Of a stretch of 64,000 nucleotides of DNA, positions 28,431 through 60,394 are shown piece after piece. Position 1 is the stretch's first letter. Each line of letters begins with the position of its first letter. Source of the DNA: Sipunculus nudus (Eukaryota > Annelida > Sipuncula > Golfingiida > Sipunculidae); NCBI GenBank assembly GCA_026874595.1, contig CM049320.1, forward strand, positions 26,885,214 through 26,949,213, given 5' to 3'. Under the pieces are notes generated by a model that did not search any database, had not been told where the DNA came from, and saw only the letters and a list, made by a program, of their open reading frames with translations. Both the position numbers and the translations under genes were made by a program.

Positions 28431-28434
28431 TTTT

Positions 28435-37531: not shown

Positions 37532-37995
37532 TAATTTTGAAAATCTGGAAATATAAAAATAATATTTATTCAATAAGAAGAACTGATAATGGCTCGTGTA
37601 TTTACTCCCGGTCGGTCCAGACTAATTATGAATGCATCACCGGTTCGTTTCTGCAGGTGTGACAACGCCTAATTACCCCAGTTGTACACACGCAGCTTGG
37701 GCTTGTACTCATTTGAGCAGTTATAGATGTGAAAACTACCACCCGCCGAGTCCTCTAATTAACCTTGTGTCCTGCAATGTCGAGTTGTTCACACCTGCAA
37801 ACCATCCGGCCATGAGAGCGAGTAGATTTTGAGCTGATAATGTCGGACTCTGATACGCTCGAACTTGTACTCATCTGAGCAGTTTAACAGTTCAGGCAAA
37901 TCTATCTTCTATATTAGCTATACCATGACACGCAAGTTCATTCACAATTTAGCAAATCTTCACCACGACAACACAGCACTCAAGTTTCATGTCAG

Positions 37996-39457
37996 ATGGA
38001 GTCAGGGTCTCGCAAGCGCAAACGCCATGTCCTGTCACTTGAAGACAAGCTCAGCATTCTGGAGGGACTTGATCGAGGCACCAAGGCAGCTGAGCTGACC
38101 AGAGAGTTCAATGTTGGCAGATCTACTATTAGTGACATCAAGAACAGTGGTCAGAAGCTAAAGGATTTCAAGGGCCAGATGCCAGACACGCATGCTTCCA
38201 AGGGACGAAAGACGATGCGCACGGCGTCTTATGACAAGCTGGATGCGGCCGTATACACATGGTTTCTGCAGGAACGTTCCAAAGGCAGCCCCATCTCCGG
38301 TCCAATCCTGATGGAAAAGGCAGCGATGTACAACAAGTCGATGCATGGCTCTGACAGTACATTTTTGGCGTCAAGTGGGTGGCTCAAGCGGTTCAAGGAA
38401 CGTCACGGCATCCGGCAGCTTGAGATTCAGGGCGAGGCCTTGTCAGCGGACACCAGCCACATCGACGAATTCCGATCCCACGTGCGTGAATTGCAAGAAC
38501 GGGAAGGTTTGAGAGACTGTCAAGTGTACAACGCCGACGAGACAGGTCTCTACTGGAAGGTTTTGCCTGACAAAACCCTAGCTGATGCGTCCGAGAAATG
38601 TGCTCCTGGACATAAGGTGTCAAAAGAGCGGATTACTGCTCTGTTGTGCACCAACGCAACCGGTGAACACAAAGTGCGCCCCCTGGTGATCGGGAAGTCA
38701 ACTAAACCAAGGTGTTTCAAGCACGTGAACATGGACTCCCTGCCTGTGGCGTATCGGGCTCAGAAAAACGCGTGGATGAGCCGTGAGCTCTTCACGGATT
38801 GGTTTCACCAGGAATTCGTCCCGTCCGTCCGTCCGTCAGTATGCCAGGGAGGGTCTGAGGCAGACGCCAGCACGCGCATTACTTCTTGTGGACAACTGCC
38901 CCGCCCATCCCATTGAAGATGAACTGCGGACTAGTGACGGGAACATATGGTGTATCTTCCTACCGAAGAACTGCACCAGCAAGATGCAGCCCTGTGATAC
39001 TGGCATCATAGAATGTACAAAACGATATCATCGTAAACGCTTGCTGTCATCCTTGCTTGCAGACTGCGTCGACAACAGCTTGTCCATCATAGAACGGATG
39101 CCCGGTTTCAATTTGCGTGATGCCATCAACCTGTTAGGTGATGCCTGGAATGACCTGAGACAGTCTACAATCCACAAGTGCTGGAAGAATTACCTTTTTC
39201 TGGAGCTTAAATCTCCTGCTGGTGCTCAGCCCCCAGCTGATGCGGATGAGGTGGAATCACCGACAGACATTCAGGTCAGCTCAGTTGCCAAGGCGGTGGA
39301 CTCGGACTACAGTGAACTGATAGTTGATGACTGGCTCCACTGTGATGGTGATCTACCAACTGCTGCAATGCTGACAGACGAGGAGATTGTGCAGTCAGTC
39401 ACTCAAGAAGCTGCTCCCGAGACATCTGATAATGAGGAAGACACATCGGCCCCGTGA
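37996..39457 (+). pseudogene. Tigger/pogo-like transposase, frameshifted
   Basis: A cut-and-paste transposase of the pogo/Tigger group. The first frame (37996-38916) starts at ATG with a CENP-B-type helix-turn-helix (KRKRHVLSLEDK to about residue 55) and a second DNA-binding helix-turn-helix (AVYTWFLQERSKG through WLKRFKERHGI). It then reaches the first catalytic Asp in NADETG. The second frame carries LLLVDNCPAHP with the second Asp, and KMQPCDTGII with the third. This DDD pattern is normal for Tigger. An acidic tail ends at the TGA at 39455-39457. The frame changes at 38821-38840, where the CGTC unit appears once too often (CGTCCGTCCGTC), so 4-bp slippage probably killed an otherwise intact gene. 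The coding sequence ends only 242 bp before the start codon of the CARD-ankyrin gene on the same strand. Confidence 0.88.
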
Positions 39458-39699: not shown

Positions 39700-39843
39700 A
39701 TGGAAAAACCATTGCCTCATCAAGTTGCCATTTCGTCTTTTCGAGTGAAGATATGCCGTATGCTTGACGTACGAAGTACACTTTTATTGGACGATTTGGT
39801 CACAAAAGGAGCGATTTCGGAAAATCAGCTGGAACACATTAAG
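39700..39843 (+). CDS. Exon 1: CARD, first half
   Basis: Forty-eight codons from the start ATG to the donor AAG/GTAATA, phase 0. The pattern FRVKICRMLDVRSTLLLDDL then KGAISENQLEHIK matches CARD helices 1-3 (basic helix 1, hydrophobic L-x2-L, EE/E-Q-x-x-I before helix 3). The alternative that this is an internal exon is weakened by the in-frame upstream stop. Confidence 0.75.
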
Positions 39844-40066
39844 GTAATATCGATGTAGTTTTTTTGTATATATTGGGGAAAATACATGAAAACGATAGTT
39901 TATAATATAAGAAAAGCTGTAACTCATACCTGATCTCTAGATATAAATATAAATACCCCACCTTTAGGCATTCAATTTAAGACTGTTCTAATACCCGAAT
40001 CACTCATGATGCACGATACACACATGATACAAGTGTTCTGCGATTCATCTTCTAGGAAGTCAAGAG

Positions 40067-40141
<75 letters not shown>

Positions 40142-43100
40142 CAAATATGAACGTATACTTTAAGGTGCAGGACACAAACTTACTTCAGGTTTCTGCACTT
40201 CTCTCCCACCTGAGACGACGTCCCCCTGAGGACTTTTGCAAATTTCTTGGGGCACTTCGAGAGAATGAACATGAACATTTGGCTGATATCATAGAGGGTG
40301 AGCGCAAAATCTAATACTTTAAATGTCACGTTTTGCTTTATATAATGATATGAGCTAATTTCTATTCTGGCCAGAACAAATATATATTTCAGGTGGGAGT
40401 GATGGTGAGACGGGCTCGACCATATTTACCAAACCTCATATTGTGTTCGTTGCAAACTCGGGTGACATAGATGATCCAGGAGTGCGCGCACTCCTCGAAG
40501 ACATGCGGATATCTTTGTCGTATATAGATGGTGAAAAGATCGCCGAAATTGTCCATCCAGAGACCATAACCTCACTTGACCCAAATGATATTACTTTCAT
40601 CATGGGAATTGTCCCAGATACCGCTGCTTTGGTTAGAGAAATAATCGCACGTGTGCCTGGAAAAATATCAGCTTCATACCTTATTACAGACACCACTGAT
40701 GAAAGTCTTGAACAGGATAACAAATTTACTGCGATTCAAAGATGTAAATCTGACTATATGTCCCACCCAAACAAAGTATTCTTCCTTGGTGAGGCTGTAG
40801 AGAAGGACTGGGTTAAGCATTTAGATCATGGATTAGAATTTTTCCTGTTCATTCCTACACCAACCTGGATCAACGAAAAATGTTTAGCTTCTAGAGGAAT
40901 AAAAAGCACACAAATGCAGGTGCTTGTTGATCTGTCACGTATGAAGCTGAAGGACCTTACAAAAATATGCTTAGAGAGCCTTCGAAACTTAATTAATGAG
41001 GCAGAGCATTTGGAGGTTTCAATACTTGTGCCGAGGGAGGCTGATGCTGAATATATGTCCCATCTCCCTGATTCTGCAAACATATTACAACTGTCCTCAA
41101 AACAGGAAATTCTGTTCAGGTTTAGAGATAACACAGTATGGGTGTATCTTGAGGATGAGCGACCCTTGACCTGGATACGTATGTTACCAGTTGTCTATGG
41201 GATCCCTCAGTTGGTACCCTGCGAGTCAGAAATATTAAAAATCCTTGACAATGAGGGATTTACACAAACATTCACATGGTATAACACTGAGTCGTTAGCG
41301 CAAAGCGTAAATAACTTAGTTTGCCATCCAAAGGAAGCTTACGACTGTGCCCGGAGGGTAACAGCTGGCTTTCTCTGCTGTCCAACGGTGGTTCAATCCA
41401 GAACAGACTTTCTAAAGACATGTTTCTGTAAGTAGCGCCTTTCAATTATTCCCTAAGAGACAATAAATATTTTTATAAAGGTTGAAATATGTTATTCAAC
41501 TTCTGTGTGAAACGTGTCGAATGTCAAGGGGACAAAGAAGAAAGAAAAAGTAAGTACACACGTAATAAATGACAAACTCCAGTTGTATTATTACCTATAT
41601 GGTGATTGCAACACATTATATTCCTTGACATATTGTAATAGCTAAAGGTCAAATAAAAGCAATTTAATTGGATACAACTAGTTAATACATTTATACTAAA
41701 AGTGTTGTTCTTACATGAATATATGTATAGAAAGTCTACAACCCCTATAATTTCAAATGTCACAGGAATGAGATATGTATCTATATTTCAAATATTTATT
41801 AAACAGCACAAAACATGGTTCGGTTGAGAACAAGGGTGGTTACAAAATTGTCTGAATTAGGGGAAAGTGTACTTCCAAGTGAAGCAGCCATATACAGTGT
41901 CCTTGCCAATGCCCTGAGAGCTTTGACCGGTTACCCAAGCTGGTTATCTGAAGAGGAGAGCACAAAGAGTCCAATGCAAGTAAACTTGAAGATTCTGAAA
42001 GAACTTGACAAGAAGCTAACCGGTGGGGCCAGACGTATTTCTGTCAGCGAGGGATCGGTTGATCAGTGGCTCTATGTGCGGGATGAAGAAGTCTATTGTA
42101 AACTTGAGAGAAATGTCTGGAAAGGGACGACATCAAATGCAATGTTGGGTGTTCTCCTCCTCATGTGGCCATGTGTTTCACCTAATGAAAATCCAAAAAA
42201 TTATGGCATCCAGATGGACCTTCACGCACATGAACCCGGGGAAGAGAAAACAGGTAAGTGATGAAACAGTTACATCACCATACTGAAACAAATATCTAAC
42301 CACAAACGATGGCTTTATTTAATTACATATTGGTATTAATTTTATCCGTGTAAATATTATTGTATTGATTGACGGAGAGCTGCATTGGTGAAATATATTT
42401 TTTTTTCCCAGTCGTTGCCACACATAAAGCGTGGATGGAAGACAAAAAGGTAGTTTTTTTAACGAAAAGTTACGCTTGACCAATTTATTATTATTCGTGT
42501 AGCAGAAAGATAAGTGATATATTTAGAAGACTAAGTCTTATACCTGGTCATCACATATGTAATATAAATTTAAAGTAACAAACAAAGTGGTAAACATTAA
42601 AATTTAAAAAAAATGTGTTTCAGTCTCTACAATCACATATTTTTACATGTATTACTTGTACATATGGAAATATAACACAAATCTTGTGGATAAGGACGGG
42701 AGGACATGGCTGCATAAAGGTGCTGCTATCGGTTGTCTAGAGACTATTAGACTGCTTTCTGAGCGAGAAGCCGAAATTGATCCCATTGATAAGGTAACTA
42801 TTTAAAATACTTTTTGAAAACATAAAGATAAACACCGAAGGCATAAATAACCAACACCTAGATCAAGATCCTTAAGCCCCTTTCACACATTCACAGATAG
42901 CATCGCGGATCATCCCGGATCATTGATCTGGGATCATCCGTGTTAACTCTGGGCATTACCGTGTTAACACAATGTTGCATCCATAGTGATCCTTCGTGCA
43001 CCGGCATGTTCGGAGAAAAAATTATACCTGTATATTTTTTTTATGTCCGGGAGTACGCGGATGGAAAATTATCCGTATCATTCCTTGTAAGCACCTTGCA

Positions 43101-45535
43101 CCTCCGTGTAGACACCGTACACATCCGGGAGTGTCCGTGTAGCCACCAAGAGCTCCGTTTTTTCACCGACATTTTCCGGGTGCAACTTTTAGTTTTTTCT
43201 CCGATCATGCCGATGCACCAAGGATCACTACGGATGCAGCACGGTGTTAACACGGTGATGCCCGGTGTTTGCACGGTGATGCAGTAGATAACACGAATAA
43301 TCCCGAAAACGATGCTCCGGGATTATCCGTGTTGCTATCCGTGAATGTGAGAAAGCCCCATAAACGAAACCGCGCTGCTGCCCCTGGAACACCACGGATG
43401 AAAGTCCGTTAATGTGTAAAAGGGGCTTAACCTCCTAAATGACCTGATCCATGTAAAAGGTGCCAGATACATATTATTATTTATATTTCATTTATTATGA
43501 AGCTATAGTGGTGACTTGATCCCCATTATTTCCTTAATTTAAATATCGACGACATGGCTATGAAGTATAATCATCAAACTCGCAGTCGATGTGATATCTT
43601 TTGCCAGTACTTGTTTGCATAAAATGCATAGCTTTTTCCTCAGCCTCCAGCATCTTATAGCTTTCTTTATGATCATGCAGCGTGTTGTACACAAGAGTCA
43701 TTGTTATTTGTTATATAAATCTTCCGAAAAAAAACTTTCAAAAAGAGTTTCTCCCCACTTTTATCATCTGCTCTTGAACTCTTAAGCATGTAGGTTTCAA
43801 AGGTGTAATCTATTAAATATCCAAGGAACATTTGACTCCCATGAAAATTTCTAATTTGCTTCCTTCTGTTTTGCCTTTCCCATCAGCTTTTATGTGGATG
43901 GAACGATAAAATGTTTCTGTTTACTTCTAAACACTTCTATGTGTGTTTGCCCTAAACGACCGACGTCACGGGAATCAATGCTATTCATTAACACCTGTGT
44001 TATGAGGACTATTTTATACTTTAAAACTCTTATCCAATTAATTTGATTTGCTTTTCTCACTAGCTGTCAGAAGTCACGGGGAGCAATAAATATTTTTTTA
44101 AGAAGTACGCCTCACAAATTTTCTGTTTTACTTTTAACTCCTTCAATTAATATATATGCGTTTTTTCTAAAATAACCTATTTCACAGTACCTGTGCAAAA
44201 ATCAAATAATGTCAATGAATATACTTCAGGAACACACCACTCCTCTAATCTTGGCTTCACAGAACGGTCATCGTGACGTTGTCTGCCTTCTCCTGGAAAG
44301 GGGAGCGGCAGTAAATCACCAAGATGAGGTATTGTCAGAAAGTTTAACCTTTATTTCGACATTTAGCTATCTATAGTACTTATGATTAATTAGATTGATT
44401 GCCGTTATATCGTCAAGACGATTTATTGTGAGCTAGTGACACCTATCCTATCACAAACTGACACAATTTCAATAATATCTACGTATGTCATATTACAAAG
44501 GATCGCATGCATATACATTGATTATTTCAGTTTTATATTATTTTATATAGATTTACATTATTCTAATATCGCTCTTTCATATCTAAGAAATACCGAACTC
44601 CCCTGAGAGCAGCAGTTAACCGGAGGAAAACACAAGTCGTGAAAATCCTGCTTACAGCAGGGGCTGATGTCAACCAGGTTACTGCGGTGAGTTGCGATTT
44701 ATTAAACAAAGAAAAGTTCAGCTAAATATAGTTAGCTTTCAGGGGAATAAGATGCAAGCGTCTAACCTTTACTTTTTTATCAATAAACTTACTGTGTGTG
44801 ATCCTCTGAATAGTTTTGTAACGTCAATGTAGGGACCGAACATTTATATCCCTTTGAAAATGTATTATACGTAAACCAATCTTATTTAATAAATCACCCA
44901 TTTACAGGAACAGAGAGATTGTCTCTGGGAATCTGCTTTTCATGGATACACCGAAATTTCCTGTCTACTGATCAACCACGGCGCAAAACTCGATGTACCG
45001 GACAAGGTTCGTGGTTTATAAAATGTGATAAGATATAACATATGCCAGAGTAGCACTAATAAAATCACATGTAATCGATGTATACTCTTCATAACTTCGG
45101 ACACTAGTTTGAAAAGGGCATGCATATATTTGTGCATAATATGAAGCTTACCATACGTAATATACGAAGATACAGTGCGTACATAACGTATATTTTAGAT
45201 CAATATGGATACTAACTTGCGGTTGAAGAAAATTTATCAATCGATAGTTTCTTTTAGGATGGTATAACACCACTTATAAATGCATCACAGAGAGACCACG
45301 ACCAAGTGGTTAATTTACTTCTAAAGAATGGCGCTGATGTTGACATGCCCAGAAAGGTAAATAAACTACTGTCCACCGAATCGTTGTATATGCCCCTAAC
45401 ACAGAGAAGCAGGTAATGAATAAAATTCCAGTTTGTGTCAAACACTAGTATTTGCATTGTTTTTGTATTTCATCTGAACTAAAGCGGTTGATTTTTCGTA
45501 GTTTTTTAGAGTCCAGTCGCCCTTAGGCTAAAAGG

Positions 45536-45599
<64 letters not shown>

Positions 45600-46237
45600 A
45601 AATGCTCTAGTGGAGAATTAGAAAATTTACTTTAGTATGGGGGCTCAAACCTTATTGCTTGATGTCAAAATATTACAGATATTCAAATCGACAGAAGGGC
45701 CATAGTAAAATCTTCTTTTAACCCCCTTAAAGAGTTTCCTTTTTTAATTCATGTTAACTGCAAAAGCATTGGATATGTTTAAATTCAGGTTAGCATTATG
45801 TCCCATTGTCCAATTGTTTATATAACTGACGTATTTCCCCTTTTGAGTAATATTTTAAACATATTACTTATTGCATCCTTTCATTATGAAAAGTCCGTGT
45901 CAAGGTGTCATAACATTTTGATATAAATGATTATTATATTACATATAAGGACGGAAAAACTGCCGTAGCTTTAGCTGCTGAAGATGGTCTAGCCGATATC
46001 ATCCAGTTATTGATAAGGAACGGAGCGAACGTTGAAAAGCCAGGCCAGGTGACAACATATAATATATATTAATTTTACTGTCTATATTTGATGGGTATTA
46101 TTTCATTTCCTACTTCATGTAGTAATTCTTATGAAATAATGTATTCAGTATGGCGCCACAGGAAACATATTGCTCTATTTCTCATCATTTCCGCCATTCT
46201 GTCGTCGGTCATTCACTCTCTTTTACTCACCTTCTTG

Positions 46238-46307
<70 letters not shown>

Positions 46308-46385
46308 TGGCAGTGAACCACTTTTCTGTGTATACCCTTTCCATCTATAAAACAATGAACCAGCATGGCTATTCATATACTATAT

Positions 46386-46434
<49 letters not shown>

Positions 46435-49400
46435 CTATTATCTATTTCATGGAAATTTATTACTTTTTTAGTTCACTCTGTGAACTTATGCCATGGCGCA
46501 GCGTCCGCCGTCCACTGTCCACTGTCCACTGTCAACTGTCCACCGTCCACCGTCTGTTACCAAATATCTCAACAGCCACATCAGCTTCCTTCATGAAACT
46601 TTGCAGAATTACTGAGCATGGGATGGACATGCAAAAATAAGCTTTTGGTGGCGCCACCTATTTTGACCTACTTTCTCCGGGACGAAATAGTCTTTTCAAC
46701 TTCTTTCAAGATAAGTCATAAAGTATTAATATTTTGGCCTTCATATCATTGTCAACAGTTCCTTAGAGGAAGGGGAATAATTTGAGTATAAATTCAGTCA
46801 AGTCATATTCAAGATGGCGTCTCTACGGAACTTCAAATTCTGTTGATCGCAAAATATGACAGCTTGATGTGTTTCTATACATGATGTATTGTCTGTTAGC
46901 AAATATCTTAGGAACTGCTGCAGCCTTCAGTTTAAAATTTCACAGGAATATTGATCATGTGAATGCTAAATGATTTTGACCTCCAGGAGGCACCACCTGT
47001 GTTCACCTACTTTCTGCGGGAAAAAAATGGTCTTTTCCACTTCTTCCAAGATAAGTCACAAAGTATTGATATTTTGGCCTTCATATCATAGTCAAAAGTT
47101 CCTTAGAGAAAGAGGAATAATTTGAGTATAAATTCAGTCAAGTCATTTTCAAGATGGCGTCTCTACGGAACTTCAAATTCTGTTGATCGCAAATATGACA
47201 GCTTGATGTGTTTCTATACAAGAACAACAGTTCATGGCCAACAGTTCCTTAGAGGAAGGGGAATAATTGAGTATAAATTCAGTCAAGTCATTTTCAAGAT
47301 GGCCTCTCTACCTAACTTCAGATTCTGTCGATCGCAAAATATGACAGCTTGATGTGTTTCTTTACATGATGTATTGTCTGTTAGCAAATATCTTAGGAAC
47401 TGCTGCAGCCTTCAGTTTAAAATTTCAAAGGAATATTGATCATGTGACTGCAAAATGATTTTGACCTCCAGGTGGCGCCACCTGTGTTGACCTTCTTTCT
47501 GCGGGAAAAATGATCTTTTCCACTTCTTCCAAGATAAGTCACAAAGTATTGATATTTTGGCCTTCACATCATAGTCAACAGTTCCTTAGAGGAAGGGGAA
47601 TAATTTGAGTATAAATTCAGTCAAGTCATTTTCAAGATGGCATGTCTACCGAACTTCAAATTCTGTCAATCGCAAAATATGACAGCTTGATGTGTTTCTA
47701 TACATGAGGTATTGTCTGTTAGCAGATATCATAGGAACTGCTGCAGCCTTCAGTTTTAAAATTCACAGGAATATTGATCATATGACTGCTAAATGATTTT
47801 GACCTCCAGGTGGCGCCATCTGTGTTGCCCTTCTTTCTGCGGGAAAAAATGATCTTTTCCACTTCTTCCAAGATAAGTCACAAAGTATTAATATTTTGGC
47901 CTTCTTATCATAGTCAGCAGTTCCTTAGAGGGAGGGGAATAATTTGTGTGTGAATTCAGTCAAGTCATTTTCAAGATGGCATCTCTACAGAACTTCAAAT
48001 TGTGTGGGTTGCAAAATTTAGCAACTTGATGTGTTTCCATACAGGATGTTTTGTCTGTTACCAAATATCTTAGGAACTACTGCAGCCTTCAGTTTTAAAT
48101 TACACGAGAATATTGATCATGCGACTGCTTAATGATTTTGACTTCCAGGTGGCACCACCTGTGTTCACCTACTTTCTGCGGGAAAAAAATGGTCTTTTCC
48201 ACTTCTTCCAAGATAAGTCACAAAGTATTGATATTTTGGCCTTCATGTCATAGTCAAAAGTTCCTTAGAGGAAGAGGAATAATTTGAGTATAAATTCAGT
48301 CAAGTCATTTTCAAGATGACGTCTCTACGGAACTTCAAATTCTGTTGATCGCAAAATATGACAGCTTGATGTGTTTCTATACATGAACAACAGTTCATGG
48401 CCAACAGTTCCTTAGAGGAAGGGGAATAATTTGAGTATAAATTCAGTCAAGTCATATTCAAGACGGCGTCTCTACGGAACTTCAAAATCTGTTGATCGCA
48501 AAATATGACAGCTTGATGTGTTTCTATACATGATGTATTGTCTGTTAGCAGATATCTTAGGAAATGCTGCAGCCTTCAGTTTTAAAATTCACAGGAATAT
48601 TGATCATATGACTGCTAAATGATTTTGACCTCCAGGTGGCGCCATCTGTGTTGCCCTTCTTTCTGCCGGAAAAATGATCTTTTCCACTTCTTCCAAGATA
48701 AGTCACAAAGTATTAATATTTTGGCCTTCTTATCATAGTCAGCAGTTCCTTAGAGGGAGGGAAATAATTTGTGTGTGAATTCAGTCAAGTCATTTTCAAG
48801 ATAGCATCTCTACAGAACTTCAAATTGTGTTGGTTGCAAAATTTAGCAACTTGATGTGTTTCCATACAGGATGTTTTGTCTGTTACCAAATATCTTAGGA
48901 ACTACTGCAGCCTTCAGTTTTAAATTACACAGGAATATTGATCATGCGACTGCTTAATGATTTTGACCTCCAGGTGGCGCCACCTGTGTTGACCTACTTT
49001 CTGCGGGAGAAAATAGTCCTTTTCACTTCTTTCAAGTTAATTCATAACGTAATAATATCTTGGCCATTATGTTATAGTCATCACTTCCTTAGAGGAAATG
49101 AAATAATTTGAGTATAAAATCAGTCAATTCATTTTCAAGATGGCGTCACTACGGAACTTCAAATTGTGTCGATTGCAAAATTTGACAGCTTGATATGTTT
49201 CTATACATGATGTATTGTCTGTTACGAACTATCTTAGGAACTGCATCATGTGACTGCTAAATAATTTGACCTGCAGGTGGCGCCACCTGTGTTTACCTAC
49301 TTTCTACAGGTTGTAATGGTCTTTTTTGCTTTTCCAAGATATGTCATAAAGGATAAATACTTTGGCCTTCATATCATTGTCAACAGTTCCTTAGAGGAAG

Positions 49401-52400
49401 AGGAATAATTTGAGTATAAATTCAGTCAAGTCATATTCAAGACGGCGTCTCTACGGAACTTCAAAATCTGTTGATCGCAAAATATGACAGCTTGATATGT
49501 TTCTATACATGATGTATTGTCTGTTAGCAGATATCTTAGGAAATGCTGCAGCCTTCAGTTTTAAAATTCACAGGAATATTGATCATATGACTGCTAAATG
49601 ATTTTGACCTCCAGGTGGCGCCATCTGTGTTGCCCTTCTTTCTGCCGGAAAAAAATGATCTTTTCCACTTCTTCCAAGATAAGTCACAAAGTATTAATAT
49701 TTTGGCCTTCTTATCATAGTCAGCAGTTCCTTAGAGGGAGGGAAATAATTTGTGTGTGAATTCAGTCAAGTCATTTTCAAGATAGCATCTCTACAGAACT
49801 TCAAATTGTGTGGGTTGCAAAATTTAGCAACTTGATGTGTTTCCATACAGGATGTTTTGTCTGTTACCAAATTTCTTAGGAACTACTGCAGCCTTCAGTT
49901 TTAAATTACACAGGAATATTGATCATGCGACTGCTTAATGATTTTGACCTCCAGGTGGCGCCACCTGTGTTGACCTACTTTCTGCGGGAGAAAATAGTCC
50001 TTTCCACTTCTTTCAAGTTAATTCATAAAGTAATAATATTTTGGCCATTATGTTATAGTCATCACTTCCTTAGAGGAAATGAAATAATTTGAGTATAAAA
50101 TCAGTCAATTCATTTTCAAGATGGCGTCACTACGGAACTTCAAATTGTGTCGATTGCAAAATTTGACAGCTTGATATGTTTCTATACATGATGTATTGTC
50201 TGTTACGAACTATCTTAGGAACTGCATCATGTGACTGCTAAATAATTTGACCTGCAGGTGGCGCCACCTGTGTTTACCTACTTTCTACAGGTTGTAATGG
50301 TCTTTTTTGCTTTTCCAAGATATGTCATAAAGGATAAATACTTTGGCCTTCATATCATTGTCAACAGTTCCTTAGAGGAAGAGGAATAATTTGAGTATAA
50401 ATTCAGTCAAGTCATATTCAAGACGGCGTCTCTACGGAACTTCAAAATCTGTTGATCGCAAAATATGACAGCTTGATATGTTTCTATACATGATGTATTG
50501 TCTGTTAGCAGATATCTTAGGAAATGCTGCAGCCTTCAGTTTTAAAATTCACAGGAATATTGATCATATGACTGCTAAATGATTTTGACCTCCAGGTGGC
50601 GCCATCTGTGTTGCCCTTCTTTCTGCCGGAAAAAAATGATCTTTTCCACTTCTTCCAAGATAAGTCACAAAGTATTAATATTTTGGCCTTCTTATCATAG
50701 TCAGCAGTTCCTTAGAGGGAGGGAAATAATTTGTGTGTGAATTCAGTCAAGTCATTTTCAAGATAGCATCTCTACAGAACTTCAAATTGTGTGGGTTGCA
50801 AAATTTAGCAACTTGATGTGTTTCCATACAGGATGTTTTGTCTGTTACCAAATTTCTTAGGAACTACTGCAGCCTTCAGTTTTAAATTACACAGGAATAT
50901 TGATCATGCGACTGCTTAATGATTTTGACCTCCAGGTGGCGCCACCTGTGTTGACCTACTTTCTGCGGGAGAAAATAGTCCTTTCCACTTCTTTCAAGTT
51001 AATTCATAAAGTAATAATATTTTGGCCATTATGTTATAGTCAACACTTCCTTAGAGGAAATGAAATAATTTGAGTATAAAATCAGTCAATTCATTTTCAA
51101 GATGGCGTCATTACGGAACTTCAAATTGTGTCGATTGCAAAATTTGACAGCTTGATATGTTTCTATACATGATGTATTGTCTGTTATGAACTATCTTAGG
51201 AACTGCATCATGTGACTGCTAAATAATTTGACCTGCAGGTGGCGCCACCTGTGTTTACCTACTTTCTACAGGTTGTAATGGTCTTTTTTGCTTTTCCAAG
51301 ATATGTCATAAAGGATAAATACTTTGGCCTTCATATCATTGTCAACAGTTCCTTAGAGGAAGGGGAATAATTTGAGTATAAATTCAGTCAAGTCATATTC
51401 AAGACGGCGTCTCTACGGAACTTCAAAATCTGTTGATCGCAAAATATGACAGCTTGATGTGTTTCTATACATGATGTATTGTCTGTTAGCAAATATCTAA
51501 GGAACTGCTGCAGCCTTCAGTTTAAAATTTCACAGGAATATAGATCATGTGACTGCTAAATGATTTTGACCTCCAGGAGGCACAACCTGTGTTCACCTAC
51601 TTTCTGCGGGAAAAAATGGTCTTTTCCACTTGTTCCAAGATAAGTCACAAAGTATTGATATTTTGGCCTTCATGTCATAGTCAACAGTTCCTTAGAGAAA
51701 GAGGAATAATTTGAGTATAAATTCAGTCAAGTCATTTTCAAGATGGCGTCTCTACGGAACTTCAAATTCTGTTGATCGCAAAATATGACAGCTTGATGTG
51801 TTTCTATACATGAACAACAGTTCATGGCCAACAGTTCCTTAGAGGAAGGGGAATAATTGAGTATAAATTCAGTCAAGTCATTTTCAAGATGGCCTCTCTA
51901 CCTAACTTCAGATTCTGTCGATCGCAAAATATGACAGCTTGATGTGTTTCTATACATGATGTATTGTCTGTTAGCAAATATCTTAGGAACTGCTGCAGCC
52001 TTCAGTTTAGAATTTCACAGGAATATTGATTATGTGACCGCTAAATGATTTTAACCTCCAGGTGGCGCCACCTGTGTTGACCTTCTTTCTGCGGGAAAAA
52101 ATGATCTTTTCCACTTCTTCCAAGATAAATCACAAGTATTGATATTTTGGCCTTCATATTATAGTCAACAGTTCCTTAGAGGGAGGGAAATAATTTGTGT
52201 GTGAATTCAGTCAAGTCATTTTCTAGATAGCATCTCTACAGAACTTCAAATTATGTGGGTTGCAAAATTTAGCAACTTGATGTGTTTCCATACAGGATGT
52301 TTTGTCTGTTACCAAATATCTTAGGAACTACTGCAGCCTTCAGTTTTAAATTACACAGGAATATTGATCATGCGACTTCTTAATGATTTTGACCTCCAGG

Positions 52401-55400
52401 TGGCGCCACCTTTGTTAACCTACTTTCTGTGGGACAAAATATTCCTTTCCACTTCTTTCAAGATAAGTCATAAGGTAATAATATTTTGGCCTTCATATTA
52501 TAGTCAACAGATTCTTAGAGGAAATGAAATAATTTGAATATAAAATCAGTCAATTCATTTTCGAGATGGCGTCACTACGAAACTTCAAATTGTGTCGATT
52601 GCAAAATTTGACAGCTTGATATGTTTCTATACATGATGTATTGTCTGTTACTAACTATCTTAGGAACTGCATCATGTGACTGCTAAATAATTTGACCTGC
52701 AGGTGGCGCCACCTGTGTTTACCTACTTTCTACAGGTTGTAATGGTCTTTTCTGCTTTTTCCAAGATATGTCAGAAAGGATAAATACTTTGGCTTTCATA
52801 TCATAGTCAACAGTTTCTTAGAGGAAGAGGAATAATTTGAGTATAAATTCAGTCAAGTCATTTTCAAGATGGCATCTCTACGGAACTTCAAATTCTGTCA
52901 ATCGCAAAATATGACAACTTGATGTGTTTCCATACAGGATGTATTGTCTGTTACCAAATATCTTAGGAACTGCTGCAGCCTTCAGTTTCAAATTTCACAG
53001 GAATATTTATCATGTGACTGCTAAATGATGTTGTCCTGCATGTGGCGCCACCTGTGTTGACCTACTTTATACAGGCTGTAATGGTCTTTTCTGATTTTTC
53101 CAAGATATGTCATAAAGTATAAATACTTGGGCTTTCATATCACAGTCAGCAGTCTCAGGAGGAAGTGGAATAATTTGAGTATAAATTCAGTCAAGTCATT
53201 TTCAAGATGGCATTTCAGACCGAACTTCAAATTGTGTCGATTGCAAAATTTGACAACTTGATTTGTTCCTTTACATGATGTATTGTCTGTTACCAAATAT
53301 CTTAGGAACTGCTGCAGCCTTCTGTTTAAAATTTCACAGGAATATTGATCATGTGACTGCTTAATGATTTTGACCTCCAGGTGGCGCCACCTGTTTAGCT
53401 ACTTTCAGCAGGCTGTAATGGTGTTTTTCTGGTGTTTATCCAAAATATGTCATTAAGTATTTATTTGTTATAATCCCCCAAAACAGAGTCTCCTCTAGGA
53501 CCCTTGGACTGATCTTTCCAAAACCTGGCATACTTGTTCCCTCACCTATGTAGTTGTAGGTAACAATGATGAAGAACCTTTCTGTGCAGTACAAACCTGG
53601 GTTTCTTTTATATAACAACCCGCAATCTCAGGAGTGATTCAACGTATTTAGCTGAAATTTTGCATATTCATAGATCTTAGACTCCTCCATCTTGTATTCA
53701 AGACTGGTGGTGCCATCTGCAATAGTTTTCCTTTTGCGTCCTTCGGTACATTTGCTGTGGGTGAAAATTGCCTACAATACTTTTTGCGGAGTGTCCAACT
53801 TTGCATTTGCCATCTGTTTGTCTTAGTGGTTGTTCAGTGTATTGGGTTGAAATTGTGCATGTCCATAGATCTTTGTCACCTCCATCTCGTAAACAAGACT
53901 GGTGGCGCCATCTGCAATCATTTTCCTGTGGTGTCCATTCATACATTTGCTTTGGGTGAAAATTGCTCATATCTCAGGAGTATTCATGGTCTGAAATTTG
54001 GCATGTGCAGTCATCTTGGAAAGTTTTCTCATAAACCAGATAGGTGGCGCCACCTACCTTGTGCAATAGGACAATGTCTACTTGGAAAGGGATGAATGGT
54101 ATTTTCACAATCATTTTTTTAATCACCTGCCAAATTGCACAGTAATTCACAGAGTGAACATTAGACCCCTGGGTCTCTTGTTTTTCTTTCTCTCAGGAGA
54201 ACACCACACCGCTTATTCTGGCTTCCAGAAAAGGTCATTATGATATAGTTCGCATTCTCCTAGACGCAGGTGCAGTAGTTAATCACATTGATCAGGTAAA
54301 ACTTTTACTATTTAGTCAATCCATTGGCAACAATTATTCTATTATTCTTTCCAGCCTTAGAACGATTTTATTGCGATTCATAAAATCAGTCGATCTTTGC
54401 ACTGGAGTAAAATTGTAAATTTGTCCTGATTGATGAGGATGATTGAAATATTTATATTTATCAATCGTATCATTTATGTTCTTGACAAAAAAACTTATTT
54501 AGTACATTTTCTTGATTAATGATCTTGATTTATTATCACACTGGTATTTCAATATGTCTCCTGGATTATGTTTTAGAAATACCGAACTCCCCTGAGAGCA
54601 GCTATTACTCGGAAGAAGGTAGATCTGGTAAGGCTTCTTCTGGCGTCAGGAGCTGATGTAAACCAGCTAAATGCGGTGAGATTTACTCATAAACTTCAGT
54701 AAACAGCTAATGTTTTCGAACGATATGTACAATAACATATTATTTCACTCAATAAACCATTTGTTTCATCTATTTGTAAATATGACAAGAATACGCGCAT
54801 AGCATTTCCCCGTGTTCTTTTATTCACCATTATACAACTATAATCAGCTCGACATTGTAAATTAAAACAAAACAAGGTGAAATAAACGGTGGTAAGATTT
54901 GATGCAAAAACCAAAAATGACGAGTTGGTTTCTAAATGATTTACAGAAAAATCGACCTTGTCTTTGGAATGCTGTGTTCCACGGCTATTCAGAAATGGCT
55001 GGTCTGTTGCTTGATTACGGGGCAAAAGTCAACTTAGCAGACGAGGTTAGTTCAACGACATATGTTATGTTCATATGTGTGAAGATAAAAAGCACGAGTA
55101 ATTTAATAGCATTATATGCAGATATGCATTTTAACATATCATATATATACATATTAAAAATACCTGTACAAGCATAGGAACCACTAATCACCATTACATC
55201 TATTATTCCTTTGAAAATATCAAATTTCATGAAAAAGGTTATACATATATATATATATATTCCCAGGACAACGTTACACCGTTACACGTGGCTTCCCAAA
55301 ACGGCCACACTGGTCTTGTCCGTATTCTTCTGGAAAGAGGAGCGGATCCCTGCCTCCGTGAAAAGGTAATGGCGGAACATGCTGGATATATTTTCTGTTC

Positions 55401-56634
55401 AACGATGCACTGTATTATAAATAACAAAAGTAATATTACCGTCAAATAAACAAGCTTCACATTAAAAAAAAATAATGCCAGGAATTGATGAAGGAAGATC
55501 CATTGAGATCTTTTATTAAGAATACTTAAACCAACTGGCTCTTAAAGTTCAATAAATACGCCTGATCAAGTAGATACCGAATGTACAGGAAGATAAAAAT
55601 CTTTCAAAATTTCAATTAAATTCTCTTGAATTACCAAATGATTTCTGTGGGTCTTTACATGGTGCCGTAAAACTGAACTGTTCAATTCGGTTCAATTATT
55701 GTATAATACTGCTTAATATATAAGGTTTGCGAACACTACACATAAAGAAAGTAACCGTTCTTTTCAAAGTGCTGAAATTTTCACCTTGTGAAGACGTTGC
55801 CTAAAGGTGCTCAAAAGGATTAACTTGTGATCAAAGAGAAATCTCCCGAGATACGCTGGCACCCCTAGCTGCCTTGCTCTCGTTCAGCAATCAAAATCAA
55901 TCCAAGCAATTTTACCCATATGCCTGTGATTTTTCTGAAAAATATGGTTGATTCTTCTTTTTTTATGATGAGATAGATGTATACAGGTGTTTTATATTTA
56001 TTTTAGCGTAGAAACACCATTATTTGGTGTTTGATCCTTGTTTAGAAAAAAAAAACAGTTTTAAATATCCAATGATACAACATAATGAATAACATTTAAT
56101 ATATTGTTGGTGTCACCAATCAGTTAGGAACACGTTCCCCCTATTGAAATTTATATTACTGTCTTTGTAAACCTTAAACAAACGAGCAACAGACGACAGA
56201 CGACGGACTACATAACTATTTCCTTGTGGAAATAACATATTTTATCATTATTTTACAAAATATTATACATCATTGCTTTGTTTAAGTGATTTCTTATCAA
56301 TAGATGTTGAGGATCATTAGATCTATCTACTAATAGGTCTTATTTTCTGGATTTCGTTTGTTACAAATAAAAGCACCTGAAACATTAAAATTGCAGGACA
56401 GTGAGTTCAGTGGGAGAACAAACATGTAAAAACAAGGTTTGTTTGAGAAAGACGCCTTACAGAACATATTTGATTCATAGAAATAACATGTAAAAAATTA
56501 AGATTACCGATCTATCATGAGTTGTCATGTTTCAGGATGGAAGGACTGCTTTATCCATAGCTGCAGCACAGGGTCACGCTGAAATCGTGGAAACATTGGT
56601 CACATATGGATCTAATGTCAACCAAATGAATGAG
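39700..56634 (+). CDS. CARD / GT-B-like / ankyrin-repeat protein, 16 exons, 3' incomplete
   Basis: Predicted exons: 39700-39843, 40171-40297, 40393-41427, 41807-42253, 42412-42449, 42695-42793, 44230-44328, 44588-44686, 44908-45006, 45258-45356, 45950-46048, 54197-54295, 54577-54675, 54947-55045, 55267-55365, 56536-56634. All introns have GT/AG borders and all joints agree in phase, giving 960 codons without a stop. Order: CARD (residues 1-91), a central region (92-584), a short linker, then eleven 33-residue ankyrin repeats (598-960). CARDs make homotypic contacts in inflammasome, caspase and NF-kB signalling; ankyrin repeats bind protein partners. I infer a cytosolic immune or cell-death adaptor or sensor. 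No signal peptide or membrane segment is apparent. The start ATG has A at -3 and G at +4, with an in-frame stop upstream at 39664. The last exon ends at a donor, so more exons are expected; I could not find the terminus. A Tigger transposase lies just upstream. Confidence 0.82.
40171..40297 (+). CDS. Exon 2: CARD, second half
   Basis: Begins after GTGCAG and ends at the donor GG/GTGAGC, phase 0 to 1. DTNLLQVSALLSHLRRRPP followed by DFCKFLGALRENEHEHLADII is a clear CARD helix 4-6 pattern (LL-x-x-L, F-x-x-F-x-x-AL, HL-x-x-x-I). A second acceptor at 40188 (CTTCAG) would also keep phase but would remove six residues that CARD spacing needs, so I prefer 40171. The intron just before it ends in an (AC)n(AT)n microsatellite. 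Confidence 0.72.
40393..41427 (+). CDS. Exon 3: central Rossmann/GT-B-like region
   Basis: One long exon, phase 1 to 1, acceptor TTTCAG, donor CT/GTAAGT. It opens with a beta-strand-like HIVFVANSG and alternates hydrophobic strands with helices (ITFIMGIVPD, FLFIPTPTW, LEVSILVPREAD). The last third, with NTVWVYLEDERPLTW, then VVYGIPQLVPCESEI, then WYNTESLAQSVNNLV, resembles the C-terminal half of GT-B glycosyltransferases: a strand, an acidic loop, a G-x-P-x-[IV/L] turn and a closing helix. The usual E-x7-E donor-site signature is not evident, so catalysis is doubtful. I base this on pattern reading only; it may be an unrelated Rossmann-like fold. Confidence 0.65.
41807..42253 (+). CDS. Exon 4: uncharacterised helical linker region
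   Basis: Acceptor AAACAG, donor CAG/GTAAGT, phase 1 to 1. The one-nucleotide remainder of exon 3 joins its first two bases to give Ser. The 148 whole codons are predicted largely helical and polar (RTRVVTKLSELGESV, VNLKILKELDKKL), with a hydrophobic stretch near the end (NAMLGVLLLMWPC), too short and isolated to claim as a membrane helix. No known domain is recognised. Confidence 0.72.
42412..42449 (+). CDS. Exon 5: 38-nt linker micro-exon
   Basis: A very short exon between TTTCCCAG and AAG/GTAGTT, phase 1 to 0. It encodes VATHKAWMEDKK, linking the central region to the ankyrin repeats. It is supported by exact phase agreement with both neighbours. Without it exon 4 (phase 1) could not join the phase-0 ankyrin exons. 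Confidence 0.65.
42695..42793 (+). CDS. Exon 6: ankyrin repeat 1
   Basis: 99 nt, phase 0 at both ends. DGRTWLHKGAAIGCLETIRLL has the ankyrin pattern DG-x-T-x-LH-x-A-x-x-G. It resembles the fifth exon of each later block (DGKTAVALAA, DGRTALSIAA), as if it were the tail of an earlier, lost block. The acceptor (GGATAAG) has a weak pyrimidine tract. Confidence 0.72.
42876..43426. mobile_element. 551-bp foldback MITE with TTAA flanks
   Basis: Inserted in the intron after ankyrin exon 1. Both ends carry near-identical inverted termini beginning GCCCCTTT(C/T)ACACATT, directly flanked by TTAA (42872-42875 and 43427-43430). TTAA is the target duplicated by piggyBac-type elements. The interior is a long imperfect inverted repeat: the + frame at 42940 and the - frame at 43274 translate to closely similar peptides (GITVLTQCCIHSDP vs GITVLTPCCIRSDP). 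No transposase is encoded, so it is non-autonomous. TTAA could also be part of longer termini of another superfamily. Confidence 0.75.
44230..44328 (+). CDS. Exon 7: ankyrin repeat 2 (block 1, position 1)
   Basis: 99 nt, acceptor ACTTCAG, donor GAG/GTATTG. EHTTPLILASQNGHRDVVCLL is a canonical ankyrin repeat. It pairs with exon 12 (ENTTPLILASRKGH). Confidence 0.88.
44588..44686 (+). CDS. Exon 8: ankyrin repeat 3 (block 1, position 2)
   Basis: 99 nt, acceptor ATCTAAG, donor GCG/GTGAGT. KYRTPLRAAVNRRKTQVVKIL is a repeat with KYRTPLRAA replacing the usual DG-x-TPLH-x-A. It pairs with exon 13, which has the same KYRTPLRAA. Confidence 0.87.
44908..45006 (+). CDS. Exon 9: ankyrin repeat 4 (block 1, position 3)
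   Basis: 99 nt, acceptor TTTACAG, donor AAG/GTTCGT. EQRDCLWESAFHGYTEISCLL is a divergent repeat in which TPLH is replaced by DCLW. It pairs with exon 14 (RPCLWNAVFHGY), so the unusual Cys-Leu-Trp is conserved between blocks. Confidence 0.87.
45258..45356 (+). CDS. Exon 10: ankyrin repeat 5 (block 1, position 4)
   Basis: 99 nt, acceptor TTTTAG, donor AAG/GTAAAT. DGITPLINASQRDHDQVVNLL is a canonical repeat that pairs with exon 15. Confidence 0.87.
45539..45598. repeat. (AT)n microsatellite in intron
   Basis: AT dinucleotide run of about 58 bp in the intron between ankyrin repeats 5 and 6. Confidence 0.95.
45950..46048 (+). CDS. Exon 11: ankyrin repeat 6 (block 1, position 5)
   Basis: 99 nt, acceptor ATATAAG, donor CAG/GTGACA. 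DGKTAVALAAEDGLADIIQLL is an ankyrin repeat that pairs with exon 16. It is followed by an intron of 8148 bp. Confidence 0.85.
46245..46432. repeat. Two (AT)n microsatellites
   Basis: AT runs at about 46245-46306 and 46380-46432 near the start of the long intron, giving spurious IYIYIY frames. Confidence 0.95.
46471..54159 (+). repeat. Intronic higher-order tandem array, GGTGGCGCCACC family
   Basis: About 7.7 kb of tandem units, each ending in CCTCCAGGTGGCGCCACCTG or a variant. The other unit words are TTTTCAAGATGGCGTC, GCAAAATATGACAGCTTGATG, TTAGGAACTGCTGCAGCC and GGAATATTGATCATG. Palindrome spacing is about 339-341, 302 or 485 bp. A trimer of 339+340+302 (about 981 bp) recurs almost unchanged from 48.6 to 51.6 kb. 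The last ~500 bp (about 53.64-54.11 kb) resembles the ~280-bp array at 30-31.6 kb. Both outer edges carry GTTCACTCTGTGAA in opposite orientation (46471-46484 and 54146-54159). A short CCACTGT minisatellite lies at 46510-46555. It lies wholly within one intron. Confidence 0.9.
54197..54295 (+). CDS. Exon 12: ankyrin repeat 7 (block 2, position 1)
   Basis: 99 nt, acceptor TCTCTCAG, donor CAG/GTAAAA. ENTTPLILASRKGHYDIVRIL is the first exon after the repeat-filled intron and is paralogous to exon 7. Confidence 0.88.
54577..54675 (+). CDS. Exon 13: ankyrin repeat 8 (block 2, position 2)
   Basis: 99 nt, acceptor TTTTAG, donor GCG/GTGAGA. KYRTPLRAAITRKKVDLVRLL is paralogous to exon 8, with the first 27 nt of the exon nearly identical. 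Confidence 0.88.
54947..55045 (+). CDS. Exon 14: ankyrin repeat 9 (block 2, position 3)
   Basis: 99 nt, acceptor TTTACAG, donor GAG/GTTAGT. KNRPCLWNAVFHGYSEMAGLL is paralogous to exon 9 and keeps the non-canonical CLW and FHGY. Confidence 0.87.
55267..55365 (+). CDS. Exon 15: ankyrin repeat 10 (block 2, position 4)
   Basis: 99 nt, acceptor TTCCCAG, donor AAG/GTAATG. DNVTPLHVASQNGHTGLVRIL is the most canonical repeat of the gene. Confidence 0.9.
56536..56634 (+). CDS. Exon 16: ankyrin repeat 11 (block 2, position 5), last one found
   Basis: 99 nt, acceptor TTTCAG, donor GAG/GTATTC. DGRTALSIAAAQGHAEIVETL is paralogous to exon 11. The good donor implies at least one more exon. A nine-codon candidate after CCTTAG at about 57504 would end in TAA but has no support beyond phase. 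Confidence 0.86.
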
Positions 56635-56639
56635 GTATT

Positions 56640-56852
56640 CGTTGGATTTTTAAAATTTCTTCCTAATACACTTAGTTGATTGTTTTGCAGCATCATTGTT
56701 TTACAACTAAAATCACAATACGTAATCGTTGGGGGAAATTGGCTCCCTTTATTTATTTATTGAAGTGCAATTATCATTACATTTATTGCACCTTCCTTAT
56801 TAAGATGTTTGAACAAATCAGGAAAATTGTAACTTGGATTATATGCCACTCA

Positions 56853-56906
<54 letters not shown>

Positions 56907-57538
56907 GTTGCCGGTCCAGAAACTGGGTTGGTTGTTTAAGTTAAGATCTCGGTTTTGTGGGGATGGCTGTTCATTAATAGTTGCATGAATAAATTCAATT
57001 CTGCAAAGAATAATAACAATAATAACAAATTATACATAACGATGAGCGTATATTGATACATTTTGCAACACATGTAAAGGTTTTTCTGTTCTCTCCAACT
57101 TAATATTACAGTAACATTCCTGCAGGTCGTACGTGAAGGTACATGGTCTTGACCTATTATAACAATAGACCTACCAAGCAATAATAATTGTTACACGGTC
57201 AAATTTTACATATTCATAGAAAGAAAGACACACCTAAAGAGTGAAATAATAACTTTATGAAATATAAATTAACTAAATTAACTTTAGTGAAATAACTTAC
57301 CTTGTGCCAGGAATCTGTCTCACAACTGTATGGGGTTGTTTTCACACCCCTTTCAGTCAGAGAATCATAGACAGAATGAAAAATAGACGAACTAACTAAA
57401 TGACCTGGTCAACACAGTTGTCTTGTCAGAGAAAATGTTTTACCTATAGATAACTGACACAGGCTTTTCAAAGGTTATTAAAATAAATCAATAAATAACC
57501 CTTAGGTGGCAGCAATGAATACTTCTAATTAATCGAAC

Positions 57539-57589
<51 letters not shown>

Positions 57590-57768
57590 CTCTGGAGAAA
57601 AACAACACTTAATTCACAAAGAATCCTTCTAACCACATTCACCTGATAATCGGGTCGCACCCCGTGAAACAGACTGTTGTGAATTAAGTGTTGTTTTTCT
57701 CCAGAGTTATACCGCTCTGGCCTAATCTGTAGGCCATAGAGCACTTTACATCGGAGGGTTACACTACC

Positions 57769-57824
<56 letters not shown>

Positions 57825-58440
57825 TAACACTGTTTTTAAAGCAGGCTCACTGACCAGTATGACGGCCACATACTTCTTTACTGAAACTCTTCCGTTTCAG
57901 AATCTATTAAACTTCTGAAACAACAATAATTAATGTACACATATATTTTATCCAACATTTTCCTGAACAATATACATTGCAGCATATTCACAAATGAGAA
58001 ATGAATACGTTAATGTTTAGAAAGGTCATGTTCATAACAATACTGGGATAACCTATTGTCTATAATTTATTACGATATTCATATACGAGAAATTAATACA
58101 ATAAGACATCATTTAATAATGATCATCATTAAATTAATTAATCGACATGTGCCAAACATACATCCTCATACATTAAATACATTACATCATACACCGATAC
58201 ACTGATACCATCATATACTTATACCACCAACTATTGTTTATAAATCCTTTTTTGGGGATGTAGTTCTACGATGGCAGCGGTCAGTGCAGGTATCTCAGAA
58301 GGAAAGCATTCCTTCACCTGCATAAGTAATTATACGTTATCAACCTTTTTGGATGAGGAATTATGCCTCTTCTAGGGGCTTTCGTTGTCTTTTTGAACTG
58401 CGTGGTGCTTGACACGGACGCGTCGTTTTACCCGTAAGTG
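56640..58440. other. Intronic or intergenic, AT microsatellites
   Basis: No further ankyrin exon is recognised. AT runs lie at about 56853-56904, 57543-57588 and 57774-57820. The last two bracket an inverted-repeat element described separately. Confidence 0.5.
57588..57710. repeat. Perfect 32-bp inverted repeat between AT tracts
   Basis: Arms at 57588-57619 and 57677-57708 are exact reverse complements (starting AACTCTGGAGAAAAACAAC) and enclose 57 nt. The left arm directly abuts an (AT)n tract and another (AT)n tract follows about 65 bp past the right arm. It would form a stable hairpin and resembles a small foldback element. No coding potential is seen. Confidence 0.85.
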
Positions 58441-59789
58441 TACCCATACCAGGAATGGGTTAGTCAGCATGAACAGACTGATTGCCTATATCGAAAACGA
58501 CGATGTTTCGTCTGGTTCAAGTTTATCTTAGGTGTCCTGGAGACTGGAATCTGGCTCAGTTTTCTGAGTTTCTCAAGTTTCATCGTGTACAAGTTGTGTC
58601 CTTTTGTCAAAATATCTGGGTGAGTAATCGCTGTCGTTGGCAGGACTATCAGGACGTTTCCCCGGTTACCAAGAGGGCACTTATCTTGTGTTCCTTCCGA
58701 TTTCGCTTGTATTGTGTGAGGGGTTACAAATTCCGGAAGGATCAAACAGTATCGGCGGCAATTCATATTAATTTTCCTCATCAGATTCCTCAGACTCTTA
58801 CGGGGAAGATTCTCTTCTGAGACGAGTCCTATGGTGATTTGGTTTACGGCTGGTTTCTTCCTGCTTAGATTTAACACTTACGGTCATTACAGGTATATTG
58901 AACAGAGAGAGTAACATATTTCTGCGCAGAATCCTTTTCCTAACTTTACCGTCCTCTTTGGGCTTAACATACATGAATTATTCTTCGTCAGACGGTTCCA
59001 CTACAGTGTATTCTCCATCCTCCGAACGGTGAGTAAATTTATGTTTACTTTTAAACGATCGCCTGGTTGTAAGTTGGATTCGCCGACATTAGGATCGTAC
59101 CTGCGTTTTGACGTTTCGGCTGTCTTATCTGCTTCCTCATGGGTAACACGAGAAGCATATAACTTCCTTTTCCTGAATTTGATCACGAGTTCAGACATGT
59201 TAGTTTGTTTGTCCTCTTCAGGAAATATCCCCAGTGCCACATCTACTGGTAGTCGAGGGTTACGTCCAAACTTCAAGTAAAATAGTGTGAATGAATCCTG
59301 TACTTTCACGTTTGGTGGAATTGTATGCGTGAATCAATCTGGGTACATACGACTACCAATCGGGATTCTAGTCTTCTGGTAGGAACGGCAATACCATATC
59401 TAGTGAAAAATTTGTCAATAAAACATAACCATATCCGCCTTTGATTCCTCCTAAGTCAGGTAATCGACACAGACCAGTTCCATGGGACACGTTCAAATCA
59501 TGTTTACTAAGGAGGCGCTTTCTTAGTAGTAAGTGTTTTCCGGCGTATGCTTCGTTCACAACTTTGAGTTTCGGGTTTCACATATCTGTTATACCTGGCC
59601 AGTAGAATCTGGAGCGTGCTAAATCAATCATCCGATCTCAGCTTAAATGGCAATTCTTGTCGTGAAGACCTCTGAGAGCTTCTTCGCGCATACCCTTTGG
59701 TAGTATCAACTGATTTCTCACCTTGTTTGCAATAATGCAGCATCGTTATAGGATTCTTTCACGCAAACACTAACAATTCCATTCATTTA

Positions 59790-59833
59790 GGAGCAGTTTA
59801 CACTCTGGGTTATCCAAGAGTGTAAACTGTTCC
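59790..59833. repeat. 16-bp inverted repeat hairpin
   Basis: GGAGCAGTTTACACTC (59790-59805) and GAGTGTAAACTGTTCC (59818-59833) pair at 15 of 16 positions around a 12-nt loop. It lies inside the decayed integrase region of the Gypsy element and may be a later insertion or footprint. Confidence 0.7.
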
Positions 59834-60394
59834 TATATTTACCTTCTCCTCGCTGGAAAGCACAAAGTACGGTGGCAATGACGTTATACGTGCTTTGGTA
59901 ACATTTCGACTGGTCACAAGAGACGGTTGAAGTAAACGCATCCTCCGCTGTTGATCATATATATATAAGAGTCGTCCTGTTGTTTTTCGTCAGTAGAATT
60001 TAGCATGCAAGTTGATCTCTACAAGCTTTACCTGTTCGACCTTATGGTTCTGCAACTCTGCTTGAATCGTTCAGGGACTCATCGTGATGGACTTTGGAAT
60101 CCGAGAAAGCGTGTCTGCATCGATGTTCTTCTTCCCGGCTTGGTACTGGAGTGGAAACTTATAGTTCACAAGGTCGGCCAGCCATCGGTGACCTGTTGAA
60201 TCCAGCTTTACAGGTGTTAGGTAGGAAGGACAGCTGTCTTTGTCTGAATCTACTTCAAATTTGCTACCATAAAGGTAGTCTTGGAATTTCCAATTAAATT
60301 CCCGCTTCAAATTTATGAGCAAGGTTATTCTCCTCAGACTTGCTGTAGACATGACATGTTTAAGTGATGGCTCTGTCAACGCCATTTTGTTAAA

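Follow-up and report, generated by a model that had tools for sequence, protein, structure and literature searches.

Receptors of the NLR type are defined by an ATPase switch between an effector domain and a series of repeats. The gene described here lies in a 64-kb stretch of the Sipunculus nudus genome (1.43 Gb; assembly GCA_026874595.1, contig CM049320.1, referred to as C15, positions 26885214-26949213), which is called the window in the following. Like NLR and Apaf-1-type receptors, it combines a death-fold domain, a middle module and a repeat array, here a CARD and ankyrin repeats; unlike them, it shows neither NACHT/NB-ARC nor a P-loop, and ankyrin replaces the leucine-rich repeats (LRR) or WD40. 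The gene probably encodes an intracellular CARD - pseudo-GT4 - ankyrin protein of an expanded family that works in the way proposed below, pseudo-GT4 standing for a GT4 glycosyltransferase domain whose catalytic pair would have been lost.

Several described systems share parts of this plan; the papers concerned are cited here from excerpts of their text. GT4 domains have been described in animal conflict proteins, where they are associated with TRADD-N and exceed 500 paralogs in Acropora; GT4-TRADD-N proteins are given for cnidarians, cephalochordates and hemichordates, TRADD-N is also named with LRRs, and sponge proteins combine death-like, TRADD-N and ankyrin domains (PMC8195603). Those proteins are similar to the present gene in the GT4 domain, the death-superfamily or TRADD-N domains, the repeats and the large lineage-specific expansion. 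They differ from it in that here a CARD stands before and ankyrin after the middle domain, TRADD-N gave no match, the catalytic pair appears to be lost and the match stays below the Pfam cut-off; the comparison concerns the text of that paper, whose Figure 6 and source data may hold a nearer case. Coral NACHT/NB-ARC proteins contain CARD, DED or Death domains, repeats including ankyrin and, in many cases, glycosyl transferase group 1 (PMC4083563). The death-fold start, the glycosyltransferase and the repeats are thus in common, but the ATPase is present there and absent here. Glycosyl transferase group 1 proteins of Acropora with TPR or ankyrin are mostly without NACHT and are likewise expanded (PMC12314368); however, CARD is not named in the excerpt, and the coral domain is matched by PF00534 whereas the window domain is not. 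Cnidarian NACHT partners include glycosyl transferase and CARD (PMC8260672), and ankyrin is not named in the excerpt of PMC2575513. A description of the order CARD - GT4 - ankyrin was not found among the matches listed in the open-licence literature, which for Kaur et al. 2021 (PMC8195603) covers excerpts of the text. The architecture had been called unusual in the initial annotation, which may hold for the exact order but not for the theme, as GT4 with death-fold domains and glycosyltransferase with ankyrin, mostly without NACHT, have been published (PMC8195603, PMC4083563, PMC12314368).

The gene is located on the + strand at 39700-56634 of the window. As annotated initially, 16 exons join in phase to 2880 nt or 960 codons without any stop, and the same coordinates were obtained again. 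All junctions of this model have gt donors and ag acceptors. The start ATG at 39700 is preceded by an in-frame stop at 39664. The features are as follows.

39700..39843, +: exon 1, residues 1-48, with the start codon and the N-terminal half of the CARD, recognised by Pfam together with exon 2
40171..40297, +: exon 2, residues 49-90 plus one base, C-terminal half of the CARD
40393..41427, +: exon 3, putative degenerate GT4/GT-B-like domain of about 345 residues (91-435)
41807..42253, +: exon 4, 149 residues (436-584) without a recognised domain
42412..42449, +: exon 5, linker exon of 13 residues
42695..42793, +: exon 6, ankyrin repeat 1
44230..44328, +: exon 7, ankyrin repeat 2
44588..44686, +: exon 8, ankyrin repeat 3
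44908..45006, +: exon 9, ankyrin repeat 4
45258..45356, +: exon 10, ankyrin repeat 5
45950..46048, +: exon 11, ankyrin repeat 6
46049..54196, +: intron 11, 8148 nt, between the two ankyrin blocks, with a tandem array inside
54197..54295, +: exon 12, ankyrin repeat 7, copy of repeat 2 (21/33 identical)
54577..54675, +: exon 13, ankyrin repeat 8, copy of repeat 3 (21/33 identical)
54947..55045, +: exon 14, ankyrin repeat 9, copy of repeat 4 (15/33 identical)
55267..55365, +: exon 15, ankyrin repeat 10, probable copy of repeat 5 (15/33 identical, but 16/33 to repeat 2)
56536..56634, +: exon 16, ankyrin repeat 11, probable copy of repeat 6 (13/33 identical), followed by a donor

In a first model, 971 codons were spread over 15 exons, and a single longer exon covered 42624-42793. 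Splitting it into 42412-42449 and 42695-42793 gave the present 16 exons. The small exon has weak tblastn counterparts in two paralogous loci, L020 (77% identity, E 0.047) and L021 (57%, E 0.89), and because these are weak, the longer exon still stands as an alternative to exons 5 and 6. In exon 3 one forward frame is open over the full length, the other two containing 20 and 32 stops. No credible Pfam match was obtained for exon 4, which has tblastn matches (33-51%) in four paralogous loci (L020, L021, L022 and L024).

The CARD and the ankyrin repeats were both recognised by Pfam. The CARD, formed by joining exons 1 and 2, matched PF00619 with E 4e-8 and 33.6 bits against a cut-off of 23.9, so that the CARD split over two exons proposed initially was confirmed; weak matches to PDB sequences were to RAIDD (E 0.12) and Apaf-1 (E 0.61). 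The eleven ankyrin repeats noted at the same time were also recovered above the Pfam cut-off (PF00023, E 6.5e-71, 10 stretches), each repeat of 33 residues being encoded by one 99-nt phase-0 exon. Judged from the diagonal identities (21, 21, 15, 15 and 13 of 33), repeats 7-11 are copies of repeats 2-6. Between the two blocks the nonsynonymous divergence (dN) was 0.37 and the synonymous divergence (dS) 1.8, the latter being near saturation; dN well below dS is the pattern expected of selected coding sequence. The duplicated blocks are separated by the tandem array of intron 11 (46600-53500), the units of which are mostly about 339 bp long.

Between the CARD and the ankyrin array, exons 3-5 encode 507 residues. 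No Walker A pattern occurs in residues 91-600, and neither NACHT nor NB-ARC was matched in Pfam, even with E values up to 10 admitted; the region is therefore not assigned to the NLR/STAND ATPases, in agreement with the initial description of a middle of about 500 residues without a P-loop. TRADD-N likewise gave no Pfam match in residues 91-597, although a far-diverged copy could escape such a search. The domain of the window was not listed for GT4-conflict (PF20706) at E up to 10, and taken alone it found nothing in Pfam, NCBIfam, PADLOC, PHROGs or PDB sequences. Relatives were not confirmed among 3 pattern matches in viral contigs or 42 in prokaryote contigs. The GT4 reference consisted of 14 proteins encoded by E. 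coli or by plasmids. With the window sequence alone, hhalign gave a probability of 0.59%, and HMMER against GT4, GT9, SDR and GT8 profiles gave either scores inside the range of shuffles or no score. A hand-written profile alignment of the C-terminal lobe (C-lobe) to GT4 was equalled or exceeded by 1 of 200 shuffles. Two AlphaFold runs without relatives gave low-confidence models.

The middle exon (exon 3) belongs to a family within the same genome, where it has at least 39 matches at E up to 0.001, itself included; all genome match counts are lower bounds. An internal stop is absent from 34 of the 39 and present in 5, and 17 of the 39 are on contig C16. As two of the C16 matches (2696577 and 2696984) seem to be fragments of a single locus, the number of loci is probably about 38. 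Twenty of the 38 other matches, mostly the best-scoring ones, were taken with about 10 kb each. L020, on C15 at a distance of 125 kb, has a TGA within the middle exon. The alignment made by script (21 rows, with L020 kept and X placed at its stop) was used for hhalign and for a hidden Markov model (HMM), while a second alignment, A1, had 20 rows, L020 being left out for its stop. Row L036 is partial. Row borders follow the query instead of splice sites, and several rows may therefore begin with residues that belong to an intron. Three positions of A1 were invariant (W139, W249 and P271). The middle exon is less similar to that of the window gene (52% in L020, 38% in L021) than are the CARD halves (69 and 64% in L020, 47 and 56% in L021).

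Once the paralogs were aligned, a relationship to GT4 became apparent. When the family of 21 rows was compared with the 14 GT4 proteins by hhalign, 128 C-lobe columns aligned with a score of 39.9 (probability 49%, P 1.7e-4), while the maxima after column shuffling were 16.3 (25 shuffles, whole family) and 18.9 (60 shuffles, C-lobe), and the reversed family reached 19.7. Against GT9, SDR and GT8 profiles the family scored 17.6, 17.7 and 11.7, with GT9 shuffles reaching 23.0. If a single paralog (of 20) or a single GT4 protein (of 14) was left out, the score remained between 37.0 and 43.7; the 15 far members gave 41.1 and the 6 near members 25.3. The N-lobe had no profile signal (hhalign 14.7), the GT4 signal being confined to the C-lobe.

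Further matches point to the GT4-conflict group. A single member among the 20 of A1, L038, matched GT4-conflict in Pfam (1.9e-4, 21.0 bits, below the cut-off of 26), its residues 104-318 aligning to profile positions 140-371. Moreover, a gene on contig C8 (L040, C8:48633814-48635241, - strand), single-copy in this genome when searched with its own protein, is a GT4-conflict protein by Pfam (1.5e-46). The family HMM, built without L040, recognised it with 34.3 bits and E 1.5e-11 among 22 proteins, the next best being an SDR protein (0.35) and an ordinary GT4 protein (0.45); apart from L040, nothing was found among the 22, which included 14 ordinary GT4 proteins and 7 controls outside GT4. With hhalign the family matched L040 at 95.3% (P 2.1e-8, 118 columns) and the reversed family at 0.07%. 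By eye, the exon end is also similar between L040 and the family. No CARD exon was detected about 3.6 kb before or 5 kb after L040, and no ankyrin after it, in the stretch C8:48629000-48638800. The family is thus homologous to GT4-conflict by profile in the C-lobe, and with good probability the middle domain is a far-diverged GT4-conflict relative of the GT-B type. The Rossmann/GT-B-like fold suggested in the initial annotation is supported to this extent by the family profile, but the window sequence alone, the low-confidence structure models and the N-lobe did not bear it out.

It could also be that the middle domain has another two-lobed alpha/beta fold and that the GT4 match reflects chance or a convergent beta-alpha pattern. 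Such a fold would agree with the behaviour of the window C-lobe alone, which does not stand out among alpha/beta proteins (in the hand-written test its score was equalled or exceeded by 24 of 324 windows taken from other E. coli proteins), and with the yardstick comparisons, in which GT9, another GT-B family, scored 36.0 against GT4, SDR 26.4 and GT8 20.5. A structural second look at the low-confidence models, which was not informative, listed many other nucleotide-binding proteins, and the failure of the family HMM to find ordinary GT4 proteins points in the same direction. However, the same HMM selected L040 and no non-GT4 control, the hhalign match to L040 disappeared on reversal, L038 matched the GT4-conflict profile from position 140 to 371, and the exon ends of L040 and the family resemble each other, so that we regard a different fold as unlikely.

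Homology to GT4-conflict would also be compatible with an active enzyme. In such a case the middle domain would be a glycosyltransferase effector acting on an invader or host molecule, with ankyrin selecting the substrate and the CARD positioning or activating the protein; domains of this kind have been proposed as invader-modifying effectors (PMC8195603, excerpt). The catalytic positions argue against it. GT4 enzymes have an E-x7-E pair ahead of a GxP turn in the C-lobe. By manual reading, the pair was seen in 11 of the 14 aligned GT4 proteins, whereas in the register of the GxP turn none of the 21 family rows has Glu at either position; the middle domain is therefore probably non-catalytic, as judged from these alignments. 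In L040 itself the first Glu is retained, but the second is replaced by Thr (manual reading), and the N-lobe is not recognisable. An active effector appears rather improbable.

The order of the domains recurs in the paralogs. Within the stretches examined, CARD exon 2 was found upstream of the middle exon (E<1e-3) in 15 of the 20 paralogous loci, CARD exon 1 in 7 and ankyrin exons downstream in 14, and in 11 loci the middle exon lies between CARD exon 2 and ankyrin. In the controls, CARD exons were antisense or downstream in 0/20 and ankyrin exons antisense or upstream in 0/20. Because the order recurs with clean controls, it is not a matter of chance, and the succession of death fold, middle module and repeats without an ATPase that had been described initially is borne out. 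The complete layout is seen again in L020, where 10 ankyrin matches follow the middle exon. When the two CARD exons of paralogs were joined, 8 of 9 scored above the Pfam CARD cut-off, the ninth (L030) having only a weak CARD_2 match. We infer that one transcript joins all exons. The introns of 1436 and 8148 nt between blocks could be taken to mean that two neighbouring genes, one with CARD and GT4-like domains and the other with ankyrin, lie here without a shared transcript. That every junction is in phase, and that the same flanking arrangement is repeated in more than half of the sampled loci and throughout L020, makes this very improbable.

At the 3' end, the last ankyrin exon, ending at 56634 with a donor after it, was confirmed, but no convincing terminal exon was obtained, the search being confined to 56650-63990 with an ad hoc score and length limits (three candidates). 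This missing exon, the transposon relics on both flanks, and the stops in L020 and in 5 of 39 genome matches would be compatible with a decaying pseudogene copy of the family, which is scarcely probable given 960 open codons, canonical splice borders and dN well below dS between the ankyrin blocks, even though the last reflects the past of the repeats.

Based on a CARD - pseudo-GT4 - ankyrin protein, a possible way of working can be outlined. The ankyrin array, which has been enlarged by duplication of a five-repeat block, may bind a ligand or host target. The pseudo-GT4 domain, with its catalytic pair lost, might act as a switch or docking module in the position of the NLR ATPase; it might dimerise, or have kept the ability to bind a nucleotide-sugar or glycan. 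CARD-bearing partners, e.g., caspases, could then be recruited once the N-terminal CARD is clustered or released. We infer this signalling mechanism as a whole, as well as the immune role and the loss of catalysis.

A wider proposal can be put forward only tentatively, namely that an animal lineage possesses dozens of receptors of the NLR plan in which a dead glycosyltransferase has been substituted for the ATPase, with the CARD as output, ankyrin arrays that change and serve for recognition, and pseudo-GT4 as a switch that might sense a nucleotide-sugar or glycan. If this were true, the NLR receptor plan could work without an ATPase, and pseudo-enzymes derived from GT4 would be candidate sensors in invertebrate immunity. 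The results also illustrate that a domain invisible to single-sequence searches can become recognisable after alignment of its own paralogs.

In the surroundings of the gene, a DNA transposase relic (37918-39454, + strand; Pfam CENP-B_N, HTH_Tnp_Tc5 and DDE_1), which we take to be of the pogo/Tigger type, extends over two overlapping frames and ends about 245 bases before the start codon. On the - strand, retrotransposon relics occupy 58400-64000 (RT_RNaseH_2 at 60771-61046 and RVT_1 at 63446-64000), the region expected for the 3' end of the gene. Further away, a C-type lectin-like fragment (1063-1323, + strand; Pfam Lectin_C, E 0.009) and a calreticulin-like fragment (28228-28566, - strand; Pfam E 0.0019) both scored below the cut-off. 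No tRNA or Rfam match was found within the window. Elsewhere in the assembly, small contigs (C61-C89 and C128) contain GT4-conflict matches in long open frames (L041-L055), several with identical scores across contigs. By eye, two of them, L041 (53% guanine-cytosine content) and L048, resemble ordinary bacterial glycosyltransferases, and bacteria may therefore have been co-assembled with the host genome.

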